A DNA stretch of 64,000 nt, taken from contig JANZZL010000031.1 in the NCBI GenBank assembly GCA_026419405.1, forward strand, positions 1 through 64,000. The letters run 5' to 3'. Positions within the stretch are counted from its first letter, which is position 1. Each line of letters begins with the position of its first letter. This DNA is from Paracoccaceae bacterium. Lineage in GTDB: Bacteria > Pseudomonadota > Alphaproteobacteria > Rhodobacterales > Rhodobacteraceae. Under the pieces are notes generated by a model that searched no databases, was not told where the DNA came from, and worked only from the letters and a program-made list of their open reading frames with translations. The position numbers were made by a program, and so were the translations under genes. This document shows, in pieces, positions 7,576-19,256 of the stretch.

Positions 7576-8798
7576 GCAACTCCCCGCCCGCGCCTGACGA
7601 ACTCATCCTGCTGCCCCCGCTGCGCGCCCAGCGCGGCCCGCGGGGCGGGCTCGTGCTCACGCGGAAGTACATGGCCGGGGTGGCGCAGTTTGCCCGCCAC
7701 TGGCCGGGGCCGGTGACGAGCCTGGTCCGGATATCCCGGACGGCGACGACCGACATGGACCATGAGGAGTTTCTTCCCGGCGAGGCGGAAACCGCGCTGG
7801 AGCTCCGGCCCGAGGACGAGGCGGCGCTGGCCGGCCGGCTCGCCGCGGCTGCGGTCGTGCTCGCCTTCCTCGAGCGCGGCGAGGCGCGAACCCTGGAGCT
7901 CTGCGGCCGGATCGGGGTGCCGGTCGTGTTCGTGAGCGAGTATTCGCCGCGGACCGAGCGGCAGATCCTCGCGGCCGAGGTGGCAAATCCGCTGCTGCGG
8001 CTGCGGCGTCTGGTCTGGCTCTGGCGGACCGAGCGCATCCGGCGGTCGATGCTCGCGCGCGCCGCCGCGTTGCAGTGCAGCGGCACGCCGGCATACGAGG
8101 CCTACCGGGGTTTCTGCCGCGACACGCTGCTGTTCTTCGACAACCGCGTGCGCCGCGACGACGTGATCGACGACTCCGGCCTCGCGGCACGGGCGAGGGT
8201 CCTCGGCGAAGGGCGCCCGCTGCGGTTGGTGTTCGGCGGCCGTCTGATCGCGATGAAGGGTGTCCTCGACCTGCCGGCGGTGGCCGAGCGGCTGGCGCGG
8301 GCGGGCGTTCCCTTCACTCTCGACATCTTCGGCTCCGGCCCGCTTGCCGGCGCGCTCGCCTCGCGCATCGCCGCGCTCGGCCTGTCCGACCGCGTGGCGC
8401 TGCGCGGCGTCCTCGACTTCGAGACGGGCTGGATCCCCCATCTGAGGCGGAACGCCGACCTCTTCGTCTGCTGCCATCCCCAGGGGGACCCGTCGAGCAC
8501 CTACCCGGAGGTCATGTCCTGCGGCGTCCCGATCGCGGGTTACGGCAACGAGGCGTTCCGGGGCGTGGTCGAGGCCTCGGGCGCGGGCTGGGTCGTCCCG
8601 GTCTTCGACGCCGCGGCGCTCGCCCGCAGGATCGCCGCGCTCGACCGGGACCGCGCCGCCATCGTCGAGGCCGCCCGGCGCGCCCGCGACTTCGCGGCCC
8701 GGCATGCCTTCGAGACGACCTTCGCGGCCCGCGCGGCGCATCTCCTCCGCCACAGCCGGCTGCCCCCCGACCTGAAGGAAAGGGCGCGGGTCGCCTGA
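7572..8798 (+). CDS. GT4-family glycosyltransferase
   Basis: A 408-residue GT-B fold protein. The C-terminal half has the donor-binding pattern of GT4: LRLVFGGRLIAMKGVLDLP, FGSGPLAGALASRIAALGL and STYPEVMSCGVPIAGYGNEA with the E-x7-E-like region. The N-terminus LILLPPLRAQRGPRGGLVLT is cytosolic. It is translationally coupled to the GT61 gene by an ATGA overlap and ends the aminotransferase operon, facing the convergent polymerase gene. The 45-base gap between them holds no clear terminator. Confidence 0.8.
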   Translation: MSNSPPAPDELILLPPLRAQRGPRGGLVLTRKYMAGVAQFARHWPGPVTSLVRISRTATTDMDHEEFLPGEAETALELRPEDEAALAGRLAAAAVVLAFLERGEARTLELCGRIGVPVVFVSEYSPRTERQILAAEVANPLLRLRRLVWLWRTERIRRSMLARAAALQCSGTPAYEAYRGFCRDTLLFFDNRVRRDDVIDDSGLAARARVLGEGRPLRLVFGGRLIAMKGVLDLPAVAERLARAGVPFTLDIFGSGPLAGALASRIAALGLSDRVALRGVLDFETGWIPHLRRNADLFVCCHPQGDPSSTYPEVMSCGVPIAGYGNEAFRGVVEASGAGWVVPVFDAAALARRIAALDRDRAAIVEAARRARDFAARHAFETTFAARAAHLLRHSRLPPDLKERARVA

Positions 8799-8843
8799 CC
8801 CGCGAGCGCGCACCAGACCGCGCGGAGGGCCTCGCGGAGGGGC

Positions 8844-10373
8844 TCAGGGCCTGACCGGCCCGGCGCTGCGGTCCCGTCGGCGGCGGCCGGAGCGGAGGTC
8901 GGCACCCCCCGGCGCGCCGCCCGCCGGGACCTCGGTCGCCACCTGCCAGGCACGGGCGCGGGGCATGGCCACCTCGGCGGCCGCGGGAACGGCGCCTTCG
9001 GCCGGAACCCGGTAGGCCAGAAGGCCCGCCAGGGCCCCGCCGATCATCCAGGTGACCGGCGTGAGCGTGTCGTTCATGATCATGTCGATCAGGTTCGCGC
9101 ACAGAAGCAGCGCGAGCCCCGCCGTGGCGGGCGTGAGCGGCACCGTCGCCCGCTTCACCGCCAGAAGGATGATCGGCAGGGCCAGCAGACCGAACTGGGC
9201 GATGTAGCCGAGCCAGCCGAAGACGCCGATCACGATGATCCAGGTCCCGTCGGTGATGGTCATGTCGGCGCCCGTCTCGGGATCGTAGACCAGGTTGCGG
9301 CCCCAGGTTCCCCAGCCCGCGAGGGGCTTGAGGTTCGCCTTCTCGAGCAGGGCATCCTCGTTGTCCAGCCGGAATTCGAGCGACTGGGCGCGCTCGGCGC
9401 TGATCGAACGCGCGATCTCCACCGCCCGATCGACCGGGATCAGCCCGGCGCCGCGCAGGGTCGGATAGAGCAGGACAACCCCGGCCACGATGCCGGCCAA
9501 CAGGAGCTGTCCGCGCACCCCGAACAGGATCATTGCCGGCAGGATCGCCATGGCGAGGATGAAGGCGCCGAGGCTGTTCGACAGGAACAGCACCACCGCG
9601 AGGTAGATCGCGGCAAAGAGCCACTGCCCGCCCCGGCGACCTTCCCGCAGCCGGTGCCGCCACAGGGCCGCCGCCGCGAGCACCGCCATGGCAAGCAGGA
9701 TCGCAAGCCACAGGCCGTGGTGCAGGAACACCACCGGGCGGAACCCTCCCGCGCGCATGTGCTGCAGGAACTCGTGCGGGAAGAAGCCGTAGATCATGAC
9801 GTTGAGCTGCGGGCTCATCCGCACCTCGAACAGGATCGGGGCCGAGTAGGCCAGCATCGCCAGGACGATGATGCGGAGCAGCTCGGCGTGGCTCTGCGGC
9901 GAGGCGAAGAGCCTGCGCGCCAGCAGGAACGGAAGCACCGTGATCGCCAGGCCCGCGACGATCGAGCCCATGTCGTGCGGCCGCAGCGCAGGGCGGACGC
10001 CCGGGCCCGCGGGCACCGGCTCGCCGTTCGTCAGCACGGTCACGACCGGCGACAGGAAGAGGACGAGGAGGAGCAGGCCGATCAGCCGGCTTTTCCGCAC
10101 GGCCGCAGGCCCCGGCGCCTCCGCCGGCTGCCAGGCGGCGCGGTTCCGCGCGCCGACCCCGAGCAGCATCATCAGGCCCGCGCTCAGGATCGGCACGGCG
10201 TCCTTGTCGATCGTCGGCACGAGCGGCAGGTCGAAGCCCGCGCGCGTGGGCAGCAGCAGGTAGCCTGCGAGCACCGACCATGCGAGCGCGGGGGCGGCCG
10301 GCAGGGCGCGGAAGAGCAGGAACACGACCAGCGGCCAACTGTAGAGCACGAGGAAGGCGAAGGTGTTCGGCAT
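8844..10373 (-). CDS. Wzy/O-antigen ligase-like polysaccharide polymerase
   Basis: A 509-residue multi-pass inner-membrane protein with about ten to twelve hydrophobic segments, starting with FAFLVLYSWPLVVFLLF. A large periplasmic loop lies about two thirds along (around residues 330-400), and near it is LKPLAGWGTWGRNLVYDPET, the layout of O-antigen polymerases and ligases. The ATG at 10373 begins directly at the first membrane segment; upstream in-frame codons encode low-complexity sequence. With the Wzx-like flippase and the ExoY-like transferase in this locus it would polymerise lipid-linked repeats in the periplasm. It could instead be a WaaL-type ligase; sequence alone does not separate them. 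Confidence 0.75.
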   Translation of the reverse strand: MPNTFAFLVLYSWPLVVFLLFRALPAAPALAWSVLAGYLLLPTRAGFDLPLVPTIDKDAVPILSAGLMMLLGVGARNRAAWQPAEAPGPAAVRKSRLIGLLLLVLFLSPVVTVLTNGEPVPAGPGVRPALRPHDMGSIVAGLAITVLPFLLARRLFASPQSHAELLRIIVLAMLAYSAPILFEVRMSPQLNVMIYGFFPHEFLQHMRAGGFRPVVFLHHGLWLAILLAMAVLAAAALWRHRLREGRRGGQWLFAAIYLAVVLFLSNSLGAFILAMAILPAMILFGVRGQLLLAGIVAGVVLLYPTLRGAGLIPVDRAVEIARSISAERAQSLEFRLDNEDALLEKANLKPLAGWGTWGRNLVYDPETGADMTITDGTWIIVIGVFGWLGYIAQFGLLALPIILLAVKRATVPLTPATAGLALLLCANLIDMIMNDTLTPVTWMIGGALAGLLAYRVPAEGAVPAAAEVAMPRARAWQVATEVPAGGAPGGADLRSGRRRRDRSAGPVRP

Positions 10374-14027: not shown

Positions 14028-15083
14028 TCAGCCCATCGGCACGGGATCGTTGAAGCGGTCGAGCAGGACCGCCTCGTGCCGGGCGGCGTCGGCGGGCCTG
14101 AGCGCGCCGGAATGGAGGAGCAGCCAGTCGCGGAAGCCCATCTCGGCGCGGTTGGTCAGGGCGTGGTAGGCCACCGCATGCTCCCGCTGGGAATGCATCT
14201 GGCCCTTGACCCAGTAGAGGTCGGTGGCGCAGGTGTCGGCGACGCAGAAGTGGTCGCGCCAGGCCGCCCAGGTGTCGACCAGCGTCCAGTCCAGCCTCCG
14301 CCCCATGCGGAGCAGGAACTGGCTGGTGAGGTAGCTTTCCGCCGCCGCGTGCCGGCAGAGCTCGCCGATCGCGAGGCCGTCGAACAGCGCCTGGGCCGAG
14401 CCCCTGAGGTCGTCGCGCTCCGGCGGCTCGCGCAGCGGCGGAGTCCAGTAGGCAAGCATGTCCTCGGCGGTTCCGAACACCGTCTGGTCGGTCAGATGGT
14501 AGGGCGCGAAGCGGAGCGACCCGAAGCCGGCGCCGATGATCCGCCGGCGCTGACCGGTGCCGGCGGCGGGCGGGAAGGTCTCGGCCAGCGCCACAAGGAA
14601 GGGCAGCACGTCCGGGGCCAGCAGCCGCTGGTCGGTGCGGGTCTTCATCACCCATTCTGCGCCGTCCGCCACCGCCCTGCGGACGCCGGCCGCCGCCGAG
14701 GTGATCTGCATGTTCACGTTGAACGGACCGGGATAGGCCGGCTTTTCGCTCAGCACGACCGTCACGCCGAGGTCGCGGATCGGCTGCAGGACGGCGGGGG
14801 AGGTGTCGGACCAGGTCGAGAGGATGAGCTGCGCCCCCGGCATGTGCCGGGCATAGAGGCGCAGCGTCTCGAGCGTGAAGTCGTGCTCGGCATGGACCGG
14901 CCCCTGCATCACCACCGCCGCCCTCGGCCGGGCGATGGCCGGATTGCTCCAGGTGCCGATCTCGGCGGCGCGACGGGGCCGGAAATGGGCCGTCATGAAG
15001 CTTCTGCCCCTGGTGTTCTGCCAGTCGATCGCCATGCGCGAGAAGCGGTCGAACAGCCGGTCGGCGAGCCGGCGCCGGGTCAT
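14028..15083 (-). CDS. WavE-family lipopolysaccharide synthesis protein
   Basis: A 351-residue protein of the WavE family, first named from the Vibrio cholerae LPS core cluster. The family marks are AAVVMQGPVHAEHDFTLETL near residue 55, ILSTWSDT, NVNMQITSAAAGVRRAVADG and VMKTRTDQRLL, with a conserved later region WVKGQMHSQREHAVAYHALT. WavE proteins are thought to be glycosyl- or phosphoglycosyl-transferases, but the reaction is not settled. The ATG at 15083 overlaps the stop of the nucleotidyltransferase upstream (ATGA), so the two are translationally coupled; this favours a job in transferring the product of that pathway. Confidence 0.78.
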   Translation of the reverse strand: MTRRRLADRLFDRFSRMAIDWQNTRGRSFMTAHFRPRRAAEIGTWSNPAIARPRAAVVMQGPVHAEHDFTLETLRLYARHMPGAQLILSTWSDTSPAVLQPIRDLGVTVVLSEKPAYPGPFNVNMQITSAAAGVRRAVADGAEWVMKTRTDQRLLAPDVLPFLVALAETFPPAAGTGQRRRIIGAGFGSLRFAPYHLTDQTVFGTAEDMLAYWTPPLREPPERDDLRGSAQALFDGLAIGELCRHAAAESYLTSQFLLRMGRRLDWTLVDTWAAWRDHFCVADTCATDLYWVKGQMHSQREHAVAYHALTNRAEMGFRDWLLLHSGALRPADAARHEAVLLDRFNDPVPMG

Positions 15084-15847
15084 GCCCGTGCCTCCCGCGC
15101 GATCCGCGCCACGGCGCGGCGCGAGACATCGGTCGCGAGGAAGTCCTCGAGGTCGCGCGGCGTCCCGATGCCGTGCATTCCCGCGCCGACCCGCCCGATC
15201 GGGAAGCACTCGATCCGCGCCCCCTCCCCGATCAGCGCGTCGTAGGCGGGCGCCACGTAGAACTCGCCGTTCACGCGCCTGTCGGCGGCGATCATCGCCT
15301 CGGCGGCGCGCACGAAGTCGCGCCCGCGGCGGAAGGTGTAGATGCCGACCGTCGCCTCGTTCGAGACGACCTCCTTCTCGACCACCTGCACCACGCGGCC
15401 GGCCGCGTCGCGGCGCACGAAGGACCACTTCGGGTCGTCGGCCCACATCGTCATGATCAGGCCGTCCGCCTCGCCGAGCGCAGCGACATAGGCGTCGATG
15501 TCGGCGTCGATGTACTGGTCGCAGTTGGCAATCATCAGCGGCGCGTCGTTGTCGATCAGCTCGCGCACGAGCAGCACGGTGCATGCCGCGCCCTCGGTCA
15601 CGCCGTCGAGCATGGTCACGGTGCAACCCGGCGCCCACGCCGCCAGCCTCTCGGCCAGACCGTGGGCGCGGTCATGCGCGCGCTGGATCAGGAAGTGGAA
15701 GCGGTGCGGCACGGCGGGCGTCAGGTTGGCGATGACCAGCTCGATCATCGGCACGCCGTGCACCGGGATCAGCGGCTTCGGCAGCGCATAGCCGGCGTCG
15801 GCGAAGCGCGAGCCGCGCCCCGCCATCGGCACCACGATGTTCAGCAT
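15080..15847 (-). CDS. sugar/polyol-phosphate nucleotidyltransferase
   Basis: A 255-residue enzyme of the NTP_transferase superfamily. It begins with the canonical loop NIVVPMAGRGSRFADAGY followed by LPKPLIPVHGVPMIELVI; the metal-binding Asp lies in MIANCDQYIDADIDAYVAAL. The length and pattern match short single-domain nucleotidyltransferases that join NTP to a sugar or polyol phosphate, rather than RmlA or GalU. It overlaps the cupin gene upstream by 7 bases and WavE downstream by 4. A paralogue lies at 16171-16902, so the operon encodes two related activating enzymes. Confidence 0.82.
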   Translation of the reverse strand: MLNIVVPMAGRGSRFADAGYALPKPLIPVHGVPMIELVIANLTPAVPHRFHFLIQRAHDRAHGLAERLAAWAPGCTVTMLDGVTEGAACTVLLVRELIDNDAPLMIANCDQYIDADIDAYVAALGEADGLIMTMWADDPKWSFVRRDAAGRVVQVVEKEVVSNEATVGIYTFRRGRDFVRAAEAMIAADRRVNGEFYVAPAYDALIGEGARIECFPIGRVGAGMHGIGTPRDLEDFLATDVSRRAVARIAREARA

Positions 15848-16161
15848 CCGTACTTGTCCCCCGCCACGCTCGGGGTCTTGACGACCACCGTGGTCACATC
15901 GGTCAGCGCCTCGAAGTCGGTCGCCTCGCCGGGCTCGATCAGCACGATGTCTCCGGGCCCGAGCGTGGCGTCGTTCATCCGCGCCCGGCCCGAGACGATC
16001 ACCGTCACCTCCGAGGCCACCTTGTGCAGGTGCCGGCCTTCGACCGTTCCCGCCGGGTAGGTCTTGACCGCGACCTCCGCGGCCTCGCTGCGCAGGACGA
16101 CGGGCTCGAAGGCTCCCACGAACCAGCCCTTCGTCATGTCCGCAAGCCTGTGGAACCGCAT
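15841..16161 (-). CDS. small cupin-fold protein
   Basis: A 106-residue single cupin domain. The metal-ligand motif region is TVEGRHLHKVASEVTVIVSG (two His and a Glu), followed by GPGDIVLIEPGEATDFEALT as cupin motif 2. The N-terminal MRFHRLADMTKGWFVGAFEP is typical of cupins found in carbohydrate loci. It lies between two paralogous nucleotidyltransferases and overlaps the downstream one by 7 bases. Possible roles are isomerase or epimerase on the phosphorylated precursor, or a small-molecule sensor; no specific activity can be given. Confidence 0.7.
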   Translation of the reverse strand: MRFHRLADMTKGWFVGAFEPVVLRSEAAEVAVKTYPAGTVEGRHLHKVASEVTVIVSGRARMNDATLGPGDIVLIEPGEATDFEALTDVTTVVVKTPSVAGDKYGC

Positions 16162-16170
16162 CGCGCCGCC

Positions 16171-16902
16171 CTAGCCCCGTGCCTTGAGGATCAGTTCGTA
16201 TTCCTCCACCGCCTGCGGCGTGGCCAGCGAGATGTACTGCTCCCGCTCGATCCGTTCCACCCCGACGCGCATCTGCGCCAGCACCAGTTCGTTGAGGCTG
16301 GGGCAGACGAAGAAGCCCCCGTTCACGTTCGCGTCCTTGCGGATCATGCTCTTGGCCGCCTCGACGAAGAACCGGCCCTCGCGGAAGTAGTAGACCCCGG
16401 CGGTCGCGTTGCGGCTGATCGGCCGCTTCTCGGCGGCCTCGATCACCATGCCTTCGGCGTCGGTCTTGACGAAGGACCAGCGAGGGTGGACCGAATCGAA
16501 CACGACCGTGCCGGCGTCGAGCCCGCGCTGGCGGAAGCGCTCCAGGATGGCCCCGATGTCGAAGGCGAGGACCTGGTCGCCGTTGGCGATCAGCAGCTCC
16601 TCGCCGTTGTCGATGTGCTCTATGGCCAGAAGCGCGGTGCAGGCGGCCCCTGCCGTCGGCCCGTCGGCGCGGAGGACGACGGCGCCGGGGTCAAGCAGCT
16701 GCAGCACCTCGCGCAGGTGGAAGCGCTGGTCATCCTCCTTGCGGATGACGAAGACCACCTGCGCCTCCGCGATGCGCTTGAGCGGGTCGAGCACATGCTG
16801 GATCAGCGGCCGCCCCGCGATCTCGATCAGCGGCTTGGCGTAGGCATGGCCGTGCTGACGGAAGGCCTCGTCGCTGCCGCCCATCGGGATCAGGATCTTC
16901 AT
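16171..16902 (-). CDS. variant nucleotidyltransferase with altered NTP loop
   Basis: A 243-residue NTP_transferase superfamily member. The fold is clear from AKPLIEIAGRPLIQHVL and LLIANGDQVLAFDIGAIL, but the N-terminal loop is MKILIPMGGSDEAFRQHGHA, which lacks the GxGxR(F) signature that binds the nucleotide triphosphate in the paralogue at 15080. The second half (DSVHPRWSFVKTDAEGMVIE, NATAGVYYFREGRFFVEAAK) matches sugar nucleotidyltransferases closely. It is coupled to the HAD phosphatase gene by an ATGA overlap. It may use a different nucleotide or substrate, or act as a partner of the other enzyme. Confidence 0.75.
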   Translation of the reverse strand: MKILIPMGGSDEAFRQHGHAYAKPLIEIAGRPLIQHVLDPLKRIAEAQVVFVIRKEDDQRFHLREVLQLLDPGAVVLRADGPTAGAACTALLAIEHIDNGEELLIANGDQVLAFDIGAILERFRQRGLDAGTVVFDSVHPRWSFVKTDAEGMVIEAAEKRPISRNATAGVYYFREGRFFVEAAKSMIRKDANVNGGFFVCPSLNELVLAQMRVGVERIEREQYISLATPQAVEEYELILKARG

Positions 16903-17531
16903 GCCGATGCCCCCTCGGCGAGCCGGATCGCCTGCAGCACCCGGTCGAGCTGCACGTCGAGCACGCTGTTGACCACGAGCAGATGGCAGCCCGCGGCCTC
17001 GGCCGCCCGGATGCCGTTCTGGTTGTCCTCCACCACCAGGCACCGTTCCGGCGCCACGCCGAGCTGCTCGGCGGCCTTGAGGTAGATGTCGGGGTGGGGC
17101 TTCGGCCGCTTCACGTCCTCGTTGCTCACCATCGTGTCGAGGTAGCCGATGAGGTTGCTCTTCCGCATCATCAGCTCGACCGTGGAGCGGATCGAGTTCG
17201 ACCCGAGCCCGAGCTTGTAGCCGCGCGCCTTGAGGTTCGAGAGCGTGTATTCGTGCACGAACATCGGGCGGCACTTCAGGTAGACCTGATCGACCGTGTA
17301 CTGCTGCTTGAGCTCGCTCAGGAACCCGTGCAGCCCGCGCGGCAGGCCGCGCTCCTCCGAGAGCATCTCGAGCTTCCGGCGCGTCGGCAGGCCGTCGTAG
17401 GTCGTCAGGTGATCGGCCCGCGAGATCGTGTAGCCGAAGTAGCCGAGCGCGCGGTTCAGCGCCTCGTAGTGCCACTCCTTGGCGTCGATCAGGACGCCGT
17501 CCATGTCGAAGACGACCGCTTCAATCGCCAC
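16899..17531 (-). CDS. HAD-family phosphatase (beta-phosphoglucomutase-like)
   Basis: A 210-residue HAD hydrolase with all four motifs: VVFDMDGVLIDAKEWHYEAL (nucleophile and acid Asp), GLGSNSIRS (motif II Ser), VKRPKPHPDIYLKAAEQLG (motif III Lys) and CLVVEDNQNGIRAAEAAGC (motif IV). The helical cap after motif I places it in subfamily I, with beta-phosphoglucomutases and sugar phosphatases. It overlaps the variant nucleotidyltransferase gene by 4 bases and the GDPD-like gene by 11. In this setting it likely removes phosphate from, or isomerises, the sugar or polyol precursor before activation. Confidence 0.82.
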   Translation of the reverse strand: MAIEAVVFDMDGVLIDAKEWHYEALNRALGYFGYTISRADHLTTYDGLPTRRKLEMLSEERGLPRGLHGFLSELKQQYTVDQVYLKCRPMFVHEYTLSNLKARGYKLGLGSNSIRSTVELMMRKSNLIGYLDTMVSNEDVKRPKPHPDIYLKAAEQLGVAPERCLVVEDNQNGIRAAEAAGCHLLVVNSVLDVQLDRVLQAIRLAEGASA

Positions 17532-18159
17532 GTCCGAAGAACTCCCGCGCTTGCTGTGGAAAGTCGGTGCACAGCATCACCGCATCCGATTCCATCAGGT
17601 CGGAGGATGCCGCCAGCCGCTCCCAGACCGGCCGGTGGTCGCGCCGGTGCAGGTCGGGCGAGACGATGCAGACCCGCCGGCCCGCGTCGATCTGCCGCGC
17701 GACGGTTCCCGCCTCCCACCAGTCGGAGTGGAACGCATCGAGCCAGATTCCCGCGCAGCGGTCCGCGAGAAGCGGCTCGGGCTCGACGTCGCTCAGCCGG
17801 GTGAAGACGGGCACGTCGGTGCTCAGCCACCGGAGCATGTCGGGCACCGACATGTCGAACACGAATGCCTCCCGCGGCGCGAAGCGCTCGAGCAGCGGCA
17901 CGAGCAGGCCCTGCAGCCCGTCGGCCTTGACGTTGAGCGCAAGCGGCAGCGCCGGGTCCTGCGCCGCATGGCCGGCAAGGAACGCCTCGGCGCCGAGCGC
18001 CCCCTGCCGCGGCGGATCATGGGCGATCACCAGCTTCCCGTCGAGGTCGCGGATGTCGGTCTCGGTTCCGAAGCCGGCTGCGAAGGACCGCGCGAAGGCC
18101 TCGGGGGCGTTCTTCTCGGCAGGCGACAGCCAGAACCCGCGGTGGCTCAGAATGCGCAT
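17521..18159 (-). CDS. GDPD/PI-PLC-fold phosphodiesterase-like protein
   Basis: A 212-residue TIM-barrel protein resembling glycerophosphodiester phosphodiesterases. The active-site pieces are visible: ILSHRGFW with the first His, TETDIRDLDGKLVIAHDP with Glu, Asp and the second His, and LALNVKADGL where a Lys follows the strand that normally carries Glu. It is short and lacks a signal peptide, so it acts in the cytoplasm. The ATG at 18159 is used; a GTG two codons upstream is equally possible. It is the first gene of the nucleotidyltransferase operon, which suggests it frees or handles a phosphodiester-linked precursor such as glycerol phosphate. The true substrate is unknown. Confidence 0.72.
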   Translation of the reverse strand: MRILSHRGFWLSPAEKNAPEAFARSFAAGFGTETDIRDLDGKLVIAHDPPRQGALGAEAFLAGHAAQDPALPLALNVKADGLQGLLVPLLERFAPREAFVFDMSVPDMLRWLSTDVPVFTRLSDVEPEPLLADRCAGIWLDAFHSDWWEAGTVARQIDAGRRVCIVSPDLHRRDHRPVWERLAASSDLMESDAVMLCTDFPQQAREFFGRGD

Positions 18160-18256
18160 GTTCACCGGTCAGGTGTAAAGGGTCGCTCGGCGGCAATCGG
18201 TCGGGCGCGAGGATACGGCCTTCGGCGCGGGGAATACAATCGCATCGTCGCCGCGG

Positions 18257-18292: not shown

Positions 18293-19210
18293 TCATCCCG
18301 GCGGCACGCCGCTGCGCGGGTAGCCGGTGGCGACCTCCCACGCGATCCTCTTGAAATACTGCGCCTGCGCGCGGCTCAGCCGGTCCTCGGGGGCGAGCCG
18401 GTCCGGCAGTTCGCGCGGGTTGCGCTGGTAGATCACCGCGTAGACGAGGCAGGTGATCGCATACTGACCCAGGCTGTTGAGGTGGATGTCGTCGGCGAAG
18501 ATGTCGCCGATCGAGTCGAGCCCCGGCGCGCGGCCGGCAGCGATGTCGTCGTGGATCCGCATCATCAGGCGATGGCCGGGGATCATGTAGACGGGCGGCA
18601 TGCCCCGGGGGCGGTGGGCGTTCGCGCTGTCCTGCATCCGCTCCCAGCGGGCGCCGTCGATGTCCAGCCGCCGCCGGAACGGGATGTCGGCCTCGTGGTC
18701 GTAGTCCGGCGGCGCGCCGGAATGGCGCCAGTAGGTCCATGTGGAATAGAGCATGACCTCGGCGCCGCGTCCGCGGTTGCCGTTCTGCCAGGCGTGGGCC
18801 ACCCACCGGTCGAGCCAGTCGAGCGTGTCGCTCCGGAACCACGCCTCGTTCGACTTGAGCGGCACGCTCTCGGTGATCACCAGAAGCTCGAACTCGTCGA
18901 TGTTGCGCCGCGCGTCGGGATAGTCCGTGGGATGGTCCCAGCGCCAGAACATCGGCGCGCCGGGGATCGACGAACGGTGGATCGTCTCGTAGGGCCGCGT
19001 CCCCGGCCGGGTTGCGGTCGCCAGGATCAGGCGCCCCGGCCAGGGGTTCGCCCCATAGGCGTCCGACAGGCTGTGCCCGCTGTGGATCTGCCGGACGGTG
19101 AGCGGGCTCGGCTCGCGCGGGGGAAGGGGATCCTGCGCCGAGCCCGCCACCGTCAGCACCATCAGTGCGACGGCGATCGCCGCCGCGGTTCGTCCTGCCC
19201 GTCGTCGCAT
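18293..19210 (-). CDS. secreted SGNH-like hydrolase or esterase
   Basis: A 305-residue protein with a Sec signal peptide (AAAIAVALMVLTVAGSAQD, cleavage near residue 26). SGNH-type blocks can be proposed: HSGHSLSDAYG near residue 45 in the place of the nucleophile motif, and ADDIHLNSLGQYAITCLVYA at about residue 250, a DxxH motif typical of block V. The nucleophile motif is GHS rather than GDS. Family members in polysaccharide loci often are O-acetyl esterases or acetyltransferases acting in the periplasm. The ATG at 19210 is directly before the signal peptide and behind a GGGGCGACGAGG region. The role in trimming acyl groups is inference. Confidence 0.65.
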   Translation of the reverse strand: MRRRAGRTAAAIAVALMVLTVAGSAQDPLPPREPSPLTVRQIHSGHSLSDAYGANPWPGRLILATATRPGTRPYETIHRSSIPGAPMFWRWDHPTDYPDARRNIDEFELLVITESVPLKSNEAWFRSDTLDWLDRWVAHAWQNGNRGRGAEVMLYSTWTYWRHSGAPPDYDHEADIPFRRRLDIDGARWERMQDSANAHRPRGMPPVYMIPGHRLMMRIHDDIAAGRAPGLDSIGDIFADDIHLNSLGQYAITCLVYAVIYQRNPRELPDRLAPEDRLSRAQAQYFKRIAWEVATGYPRSGVPPG

Positions 19211-19256
19211 CCTCGTCGCCCCCCGTTCCCCCTTATGCCGGAAGTTCACGGCAGGG

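Follow-up and report, generated by a model that had tools for sequence, protein, structure and literature searches.

A recurrent gene cassette with paired nucleotidyltransferases and a modified GDPD-fold protein that may make an activated building block for surface glycans

In several described routes to activated sugars, a HAD phosphatase acts next to a nucleotidyltransferase (NTase) step, as in GmhB-HddC and KdsC-KdsB, and NTases can themselves form catalytic plus non-catalytic pairs, as in GMPPA-GMPPB and similar systems. We analyzed a locus with features of both in a 64,000-nucleotide stretch of contig JANZZL010000031.1 from a Paracoccaceae bacterium (hereafter the window, meaning this whole stretch). 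Six minus-strand genes (14028-18165), overlapping or abutting, encode in order a GDPD-fold protein, a HAD-type enzyme, a first NTase (NTase1), a small cupin, a second NTase (NTase2) and a WavE family protein, with a flippase gene next; we refer to the first five as the cassette. Like GmhB-HddC and KdsC-KdsB, the cassette has a HAD that adjoins an NTase or is fused with one; unlike those systems, its HAD and NTases reach no equivalog cut-off, and their dedicated kinase and isomerase are absent from it. Similarly, the two homologous, co-inherited NTases, one with an altered active site, resemble GMPPA-GMPPB, but the cassette pair adjoins GDPD, HAD and cupin genes and can be a single fused protein.

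Phage genomes, too, combine nucleoside-diphosphate (NDP) sugar enzymes, cupins, HADs and glycosyltransferases, in the capsule-modification clusters of cyanophages and jumbo phages (PMC7824862), but the NTases named in the passages on these clusters are of the HIGH superfamily, those passages mention neither a GDPD nor a HAD-NTase fusion, and the term GDPD is absent from the paper's text. Our literature searches found no paper whose title or abstract describes this gene set, in agreement with a first-pass annotation of the window, which had named no known pathway of this composition; an account in a subscription journal is possible, and the keyword WavE collides with "wave", which weakens some of the searches. 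The recurrence described below points to a shared sugar-activation route that is apparently undescribed. We favor, with modest confidence, the reading that this is a horizontally spread cassette that supplies surface-glycan synthesis with a single unusual building block, activated by a nucleotide.

Recurrence of the cassette in genomes, plasmids and viruses

We scanned GTDB (84,980 species) with a GDPD profile built from seven sequences (the window and six plasmid loci) and obtained 428 stretches with a pattern match, 352 of which encode a GDPD relative; locus counts refer to the best 80 of these 352, and per-gene counts come from profiles built on the window plus up to seven annotated loci (L005-L011), applied to up to 9 kb on each side. 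The complete five-gene core (GDPD, HAD, NTase1, cupin and NTase2) was present in 67 of the 80 loci; gene by gene, GDPD was found in 80 (by construction), HAD in 77, NTase1 in 76, NTase2 in 73 and cupin in 70. By our own sorting of the 13 incomplete loci, seven are short contigs or contig ends (L013, L024, L031, L037, L040, L067 and L090), three have a fused NTase1-NTase2 and a third NTase with no cupin (L041, L064 and L076), and three are real exceptions: L034 (no cupin), L077 (no cupin and no NTase2) and L032, discussed below. Under a slightly looser rule all five genes were found in 68 loci, with a median span of 3.07 kb (64 of the 68 within 4 kb), and the order was GDPD-HAD-NTase1-cupin-NTase2 in 44 of these, with NTase2 first in 14 and four other orders in the remaining 10. 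The 80 loci span about 11 phyla by our own assignment from record titles (five records had no usable title), and the complete set about 10: Pseudomonadota, Bacteroidota, Cyanobacteria, Planctomycetota, Myxococcota, Verrucomicrobiota, Marinimicrobia, the Desulfo group, Campylobacterota and Nitrospirota.

The first-pass annotation had drawn the unit wider, with WavE as a member and the flippase following it. Both are variable neighbors, WavE being present in just 39 of the 80 loci; when we looked for separated homologues, the five-gene core stayed together and the six-gene unit with WavE did not. The distance matrices of the families correlate in all 15 pairs (Spearman 0.22-0.61, with 0 or 1 of 500 permutations as high), a correlation also expected from host relatedness alone.

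Among 196 genomes from the host's order, a full-length cassette GDPD was found only in the window's own (348.7 bits), while 35 others match over about 45-65 residues at no more than 25.6 bits; these short matches are presumably ordinary GDPDs. Across 398 genomes from the host's phylum, strong GDPD matches (>200 bits) occur in two, the window's own and one other (G519), and strong NTase2 matches (>300 bits) in the same two; in G519 the best place for the NTase1 profile is its NTase2 gene. Weak GDPD matches (72-83 bits) occur in five further genomes of the phylum, four of which also encode a two-NTase protein. Vertical inheritance within the host's family was rejected, given a full-length GDPD in 1 of 196 order genomes, and the distribution fits horizontal spread of the cassette.

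Plasmids gave a similar picture. Searches of 72,556 plasmids with the window's GDPD-fold protein (P0007, at least 35% identity), HAD (P0006, at least 52%) and NTase2 (P0003, at least 43%) returned the identical 24 records, the next hits below these limits being at 35% for P0006 and 37% for P0003. NTase1 (P0005) at 34% identity or more lists the same 24 plasmids; its best place is the NTase2 gene in four, two of them without any other place, and on the A. pasteurianus and the Scandinavium plasmids the NTase1 query matches the NTase2 gene only. A cupin was found in 7 of the 24. Below the limits, distant relatives stand apart in 13 more plasmid records for P0003 and 21 for P0005, two also with a weak GDPD match. 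Inspection of seven plasmid neighborhoods showed the window's gene order, with WavE, on Ruegeria and Roseinatronobacter plasmids. On the two plasmids that best match the window, both NTases are annotated "glycosyltransferase family 2", the GDPD and cupin "hypothetical protein", and the HAD "HAD family phosphatase". Since the same genes recur together across phyla, their grouping is not a matter of chance, and this recurrence together with the same plasmid records rules out chance adjacency.

A conjugative-typed plasmid from a Pseudomonas aeruginosa blood isolate (L009, NZ_CP017294.1, 6890-15335) carries the cassette with a GMC oxidoreductase and WavE. We also considered whether E. coli O-antigen loci of known structure could point to the product; this approach was dropped, as Pantoea and Tatumella cassette DNA had no match in 5,426 E. 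coli genomes (a comparison of DNA only, which a diverged copy could escape).

In viruses the cassette takes a condensed form. A scan of IMG/VR with the NTase2 profile found at least 596 relatives; among the best 80 contigs, 76 encode HAD and NTase2 in one protein, with the HAD from the cassette clade, and 65 have a GDPD in flanking DNA, nearly always in a short form. The cyanophages S-CAM9 and DSL-LC03 carry the HAD-NTase2 fusion, and a DSL-LC03 gene is annotated glycerophosphoryl diester phosphodiesterase. The GDPD gene observed in a cyanophage is diverged and reduced in length; the full five-gene form occurs on a single contig (L161) of the viral collection. A scan of the same collection with the GDPD profile found only three relatives, the short form having diverged beyond the reach of that profile; P0007 had no match among named phages at E 0.01, and a scan of viral sequences with NTase1 alone confirmed no relative. 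Given the viral HAD-NTase2 fusions with a GDPD, the core is HAD, NTase2 and GDPD, and NTase1 and cupin belong mainly to the cellular form.

The cassette proteins and their surroundings

The two NTases differ at their active sites. NTase2 (P0003, 255 residues; 15080..15847, minus strand) is a canonical sugar-phosphate-type nucleotidyltransferase, and both it (41.8 bits) and NTase1 (P0005, 243 residues; 16171..16902, minus strand; 38.1 bits) match PF00483 (NTP_transferase; cut-off 21.2 bits). The GxGxR loop, which we take to be the triphosphate loop, is kept in 72 of 73 aligned NTase2 rows, reading GRGSR within PMAGRGSRF in the window. It was found in the first 30 residues of none of 75 NTase1 rows, and the aligned Arg is present in four; E, K and S from the other half of the site are present in all 75, and Glu195 is not kept. 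The NTases are therefore not two equivalent activating enzymes, contrary to the first reading, and from their residues they may be an enzyme with a pseudoenzyme partner. In a 42-row tree (the NTase pairs of the window and of 20 loci chosen for spread; bootstrap not fully settled), one branch with 100/100 support splits NTase1 from NTase2, and since each forms one clade at this support, the pair is old. Single proteins containing both were found in two Rhizobium, one Azospirillum and three GTDB loci. Where the cupin is absent, a third, yet more diverged NTase (NT3) follows the fused gene (L007, L008, L010, L041, L064 and L076).

NCBIfam equivalog cut-offs for RmlA, GalU and GlmU are far from reached (best 45.7 of 320.25 bits, for rmlA_long with P0003), and no TagD-type cytidylyltransferase (HIGH) domain is among the Pfam families matched by eight proteins at E 0.001. 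The first-pass statement that RmlA, GalU and TagD patterns do not fit was thus right for TagD and for the equivalogs, but both NTases do fall in the same Pfam superfamily, PF00483, from whose usual members NTase1 differs in its missing loop. Against the PDB, the NTase2 profile matched 4evw at 110 bits (profile positions 4-242 of 250 aligned), a "nucleoside-diphosphate-sugar pyrophosphorylase" that shares the PMAG...RF loop and EK site of NTase2 and that we take to be of Vibrio origin, with no known substrate and the CDD label GT2_BcE_like. The matches after 4evw are mostly guanylyltransferases (34-46 bits); 7d72, an entry of the GMPPA-GMPPB type, is among the matches, as are two 6-deoxy-mannoheptose pathway proteins (5xhw and 6jq8, 34.7 bits). 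By sequence, the nucleotide may lean, weakly, to guanylyl.

The cassette's first gene encodes the GDPD-fold protein (P0007, 214 residues; 17521..18165, minus strand). Modelled with AlphaFold2 (mean pLDDT 96), it forms a GDPD TIM barrel, as the first reading of the gene had it, though P0007 has no Pfam match, PF03009 included (among 50 relatives, 3 match PF03009 at an E value of 0.1 or lower, the lowest being 0.0059). The best structural match is 2pz0 (Z 20.6, 197 residues aligned, 2.4 Å); matches 1-39 (Z 14.0-20.6) are GDPDs, phospholipases D or C and entries with a GDPD-like part, two being labelled glucanase and two phage spike, and the first non-GDPD-like matches are pyruvate kinases, from Z 12.5. 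P0007 shares with the GDPD family (PF03009) the fold, both His residues and the E and D metal ligands: His8, Glu35, Asp37 and His49 are present in 80 or 81 of 81 rows (His 80 and 81; Glu and Asp 81). We assume that the His pair is catalytic and that Glu/Asp/Glu forms the metal site. Unlike the family, P0007 has Asn at position 78, in 81 of 81 rows, where the solved GDPD 1o1z has the Glu of "EIK", an alignment that depends on a weak segment of the hidden Markov model match; this Glu is presumably a metal ligand, likely the third of the site. The first-pass suggestion that the protein releases or prepares a phosphorylated polyol was correct as to the fold, but plain release is unproven given the Asn at the likely ligand position.

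The HAD-IA phosphatase-type enzyme (P0006, 210 residues; 16899..17531, minus strand) matches PF13419 at 122.6 bits (cut-off 23.8), and D9, D11, S111, K144 and D169 are conserved in 78 of 78 rows. Its best NCBIfam match is the PGMB-YQAB subfamily at 131.2 bits, under the TIGR02009 cut-off (131.2 of 153.35 bits), and TIGR01990 (beta-phosphoglucomutase) gave 97.1 of 189.4 bits; among the 25 matches listed of 35, no functional equivalog cut-off was reached. The best PDB profile match is 3e58, a putative beta-phosphoglucomutase, and the hexitol phosphatase HxpB and mannitol-1-phosphate dehydrogenase/phosphatase are among its better matches. The small cupin (P0004, 106 residues; 15841..16161, minus strand) is marginal in Pfam (28.1 bits against a cut-off of 27.2). 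Eight loci (L033, L042, L045, L051, L060, L063, L082 and L083) have a gene of about 111 residues between NTase1 and cupin that is SnoaL-like, by Pfam on one member.

The WavE family protein (P0002, 351 residues; 14028..15083, minus strand) is an optional partner. It matches PF07507 at 55.6 bits (cut-off 27; profile 2-212 of 305), and a sequence-profile search of the PDB at E 0.1 found no relative. Its model (pLDDT 88) has a GT-A fold with structural matches at Z 12-13 over 170-218 residues, at the top B4GALNT1, GalNAc transferases, hyaluronan synthase and WrtF, all nucleotide-sugar glycosyltransferases; nucleotidyltransferases of the same fold class (KdsB and IspD) also match, and Foldseek TM-scores are only about 0.3. 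A transferase-like family, FFG or phrog_13607 (for instance L217, 7881-8600), stands beside the HAD-NTase2 fusion in 39 of 83 viral loci and occurs in 14 of the 80 cellular loci. PHROGs labels the family matches of this gene set, phrog_13607 included, as of unknown function, except for one HAD-superfamily hydrolase. Judged by eye, WavE, phrog_13607 and a 591-residue type are transferases of one kind, and at least one of them is present in 53 of the 80 cellular loci. The largest clusters of recurring neighbors, also by eye, look like glycosyltransferases, NAD-dependent sugar epimerases and polysaccharide ABC exporters.

In the window, GDPD/HAD overlap by 11 bases, HAD/NTase1 by 4, cupin/NTase2 by 7 and NTase2/WavE by 4, with gaps of 9 bases between NTase1 and cupin and 6 between WavE and the oligosaccharide flippase (P0001, PF13440; 12609..14021, minus strand), which lies outside the conserved core. 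These re-measured values equal those first reported, and Pfam agrees with the families first given for flippase, WavE, both NTases, HAD and, barely, cupin. The G+C content is 69.6% in the cassette, 72% in the window and 71.7% and 72.9% in the 10-kb flanks. Because the surrounding genes encode glycosyltransferases, a PIG-L deacetylase, a WecG/TagA enzyme, a polysaccharide deacetylase and an O-antigen ligase-like protein (28.6 bits, below the Pfam cut-off of 31.7), we consider the window a glycan locus. A minus-strand gene upstream of GDPD (18293-19213) lacks a Pfam match; five cassette loci (L013-L017) encode relatives of its product at 27-74% identity, and the motifs of this product, as we read them, resemble SGNH-hydrolase.

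A proposed route and competing explanations

From the gene set, its linkage, the fusions, the residue changes and the modelled folds, we infer the chemical steps, the nature of the product (X) and a role in polysaccharide as follows. NTase2 would be the catalytic nucleotidyltransferase (NTP + X-phosphate -> NDP-X), the HAD would remove or move a phosphate right before or after this step, and the cupin might isomerise or epimerise X. Lacking the triphosphate loop but retaining E, K and S, NTase1 would be a degenerate partner that regulates NTase2 or assembles with it, and the GDPD-fold enzyme would act on a phosphodiester intermediate of the route, not on glycerophosphodiesters in general. X would be attached by a WavE-type GT-A enzyme or by a different transferase encoded elsewhere, and the flippase would export the unit; judging from the neighbors, the product may decorate a polysaccharide. 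That the enzymes serve one route is best supported by the HAD-NTase2 and NTase1-NTase2 fusions. The prepare-activate-attach-flip route of the first-pass annotation is plausible in outline, the genes being co-inherited, but WavE and the flippase are variable, NTase1 lacks its loop and the GDPD site is altered. More tentatively, and somewhat short of calling it probable, we propose that the core of HAD, NTase and modified GDPD, to which the full form adds the degenerate NTase and cupin, makes a nucleotide-activated residue new to glycobiology, that the GDPD catalyzes a phosphodiester step in its biosynthesis, and that phages carry a condensed HAD-NTase version.

Several observations weigh against this reading. 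The cassette has no kinase of its own, which leaves the source of the phosphorylated substrate unexplained, and its HAD may instead act as a mutase. In 27 of the 80 loci, and in 17 of the 61 that are at least 15 kb long, no member of the three transferase types was found. Linkage also fails in places: L032 (Gastranaerophilales; 7918-9651) has GDPD and WavE with the other four genes absent within 9 kb, distant NTase2 relatives (83-163 bits) occur without a GDPD match in 6 of the 398 phylum genomes, the cupin of the A. pasteurianus plasmid is about 90 kb from the remaining genes, and on the Scandinavium plasmid NTase1 was not found, the other genes spreading over about 7 kb. Among 83 viral loci, a single one has a gene best assigned to NTase1; together with the Scandinavium plasmid, this indicates that NTase1 is not essential to the core.

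We considered four other explanations. The first is a polyol-phosphate route, in which the GDPD frees a polyol phosphate such as glycerol phosphate, NTase2 forms a cytidine-diphosphate-polyol and WavE transfers polyol phosphate to a glycan. In its favor are the GDPD barrel, in which both His and the E/D metal pair are conserved, and the occurrence of HxpB and mannitol-1-phosphate dehydrogenase/phosphatase among the better HAD matches, but the likely metal-ligand Glu is Asn in every GDPD row, there is no TagD-type Pfam match, and WavE models as a sugar-type GT-A. Moreover, a dedicated GDPD is hard to justify, glycerol phosphate being available in cells anyway, and we judge this route unlikely. 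The second takes the HAD as a beta-phosphomutase, converting hexose-6-phosphate to beta-hexose-1-phosphate for a rare NDP-beta-hexose, in line with its best NCBIfam and PDB matches (PGMB-YQAB and 3e58) and with the fusion of HAD and NTase2 alone in viral contigs; since the HAD falls under the TIGR02009 and TIGR01990 cut-offs and the GDPD is left unexplained, we find this quite unlikely. A third, which we hold to be very unlikely, is a known NDP-sugar pathway with unfamiliar partners, for example NDP-heptose, so that ordinary chemistry would appear in a new gene order. The guanylyltransferases and the two 6-deoxy-mannoheptose proteins among the NTase2 matches point this way, and a HAD beside an NTase is the GmhB-HddC pattern, but these matches are weak next to 4evw (110 bits), no sedoheptulose-7-phosphate isomerase or heptose kinase is among the cassette proteins, the only part of the genome searched for them, and neither the Asn found in every GDPD row nor the degenerate NTase1 is accounted for. 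Finally, that the cassette works toward a small molecule or a lipid head group, its place in a glycan locus being incidental, is hardly credible: the loci without a nearby transferase of the three types would fit, but the recurring neighbors look by eye like polysaccharide genes (glycosyltransferases, sugar epimerases and exporters) and the window is itself a glycan locus.

A related cluster and what the cassette may mean

We also noted a cousin cluster, on an E. coli plasmid and in Azospirillum brasilense (L124, NZ_CP145712.1, 6022-14984, and L125, NZ_CP032350.1, 5157-12541). It encodes a GDPD-like protein with the same Asn change and a double-NTase protein with both loops intact, together with GtrA, GT2, a class II aldolase, a HAD from another clade and, by eye, a phosphoribulokinase-type (PRK) kinase fused to a membrane-like part. 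Its DNA was found in 2 of the 5,426 E. coli genomes, both times on plasmids.

If the reading of the cassette as a maker of an activated glycan building block is right, a whole activation pathway of about 10 bacterial phyla and many phages is without an assigned substrate. The degenerate NTase offers a candidate enzyme-pseudoenzyme pair, and working out one member would improve the annotation of hundreds of loci, given the 352 GTDB stretches that encode a GDPD relative and the viral stretches, at least 596, that encode an NTase2 relative.

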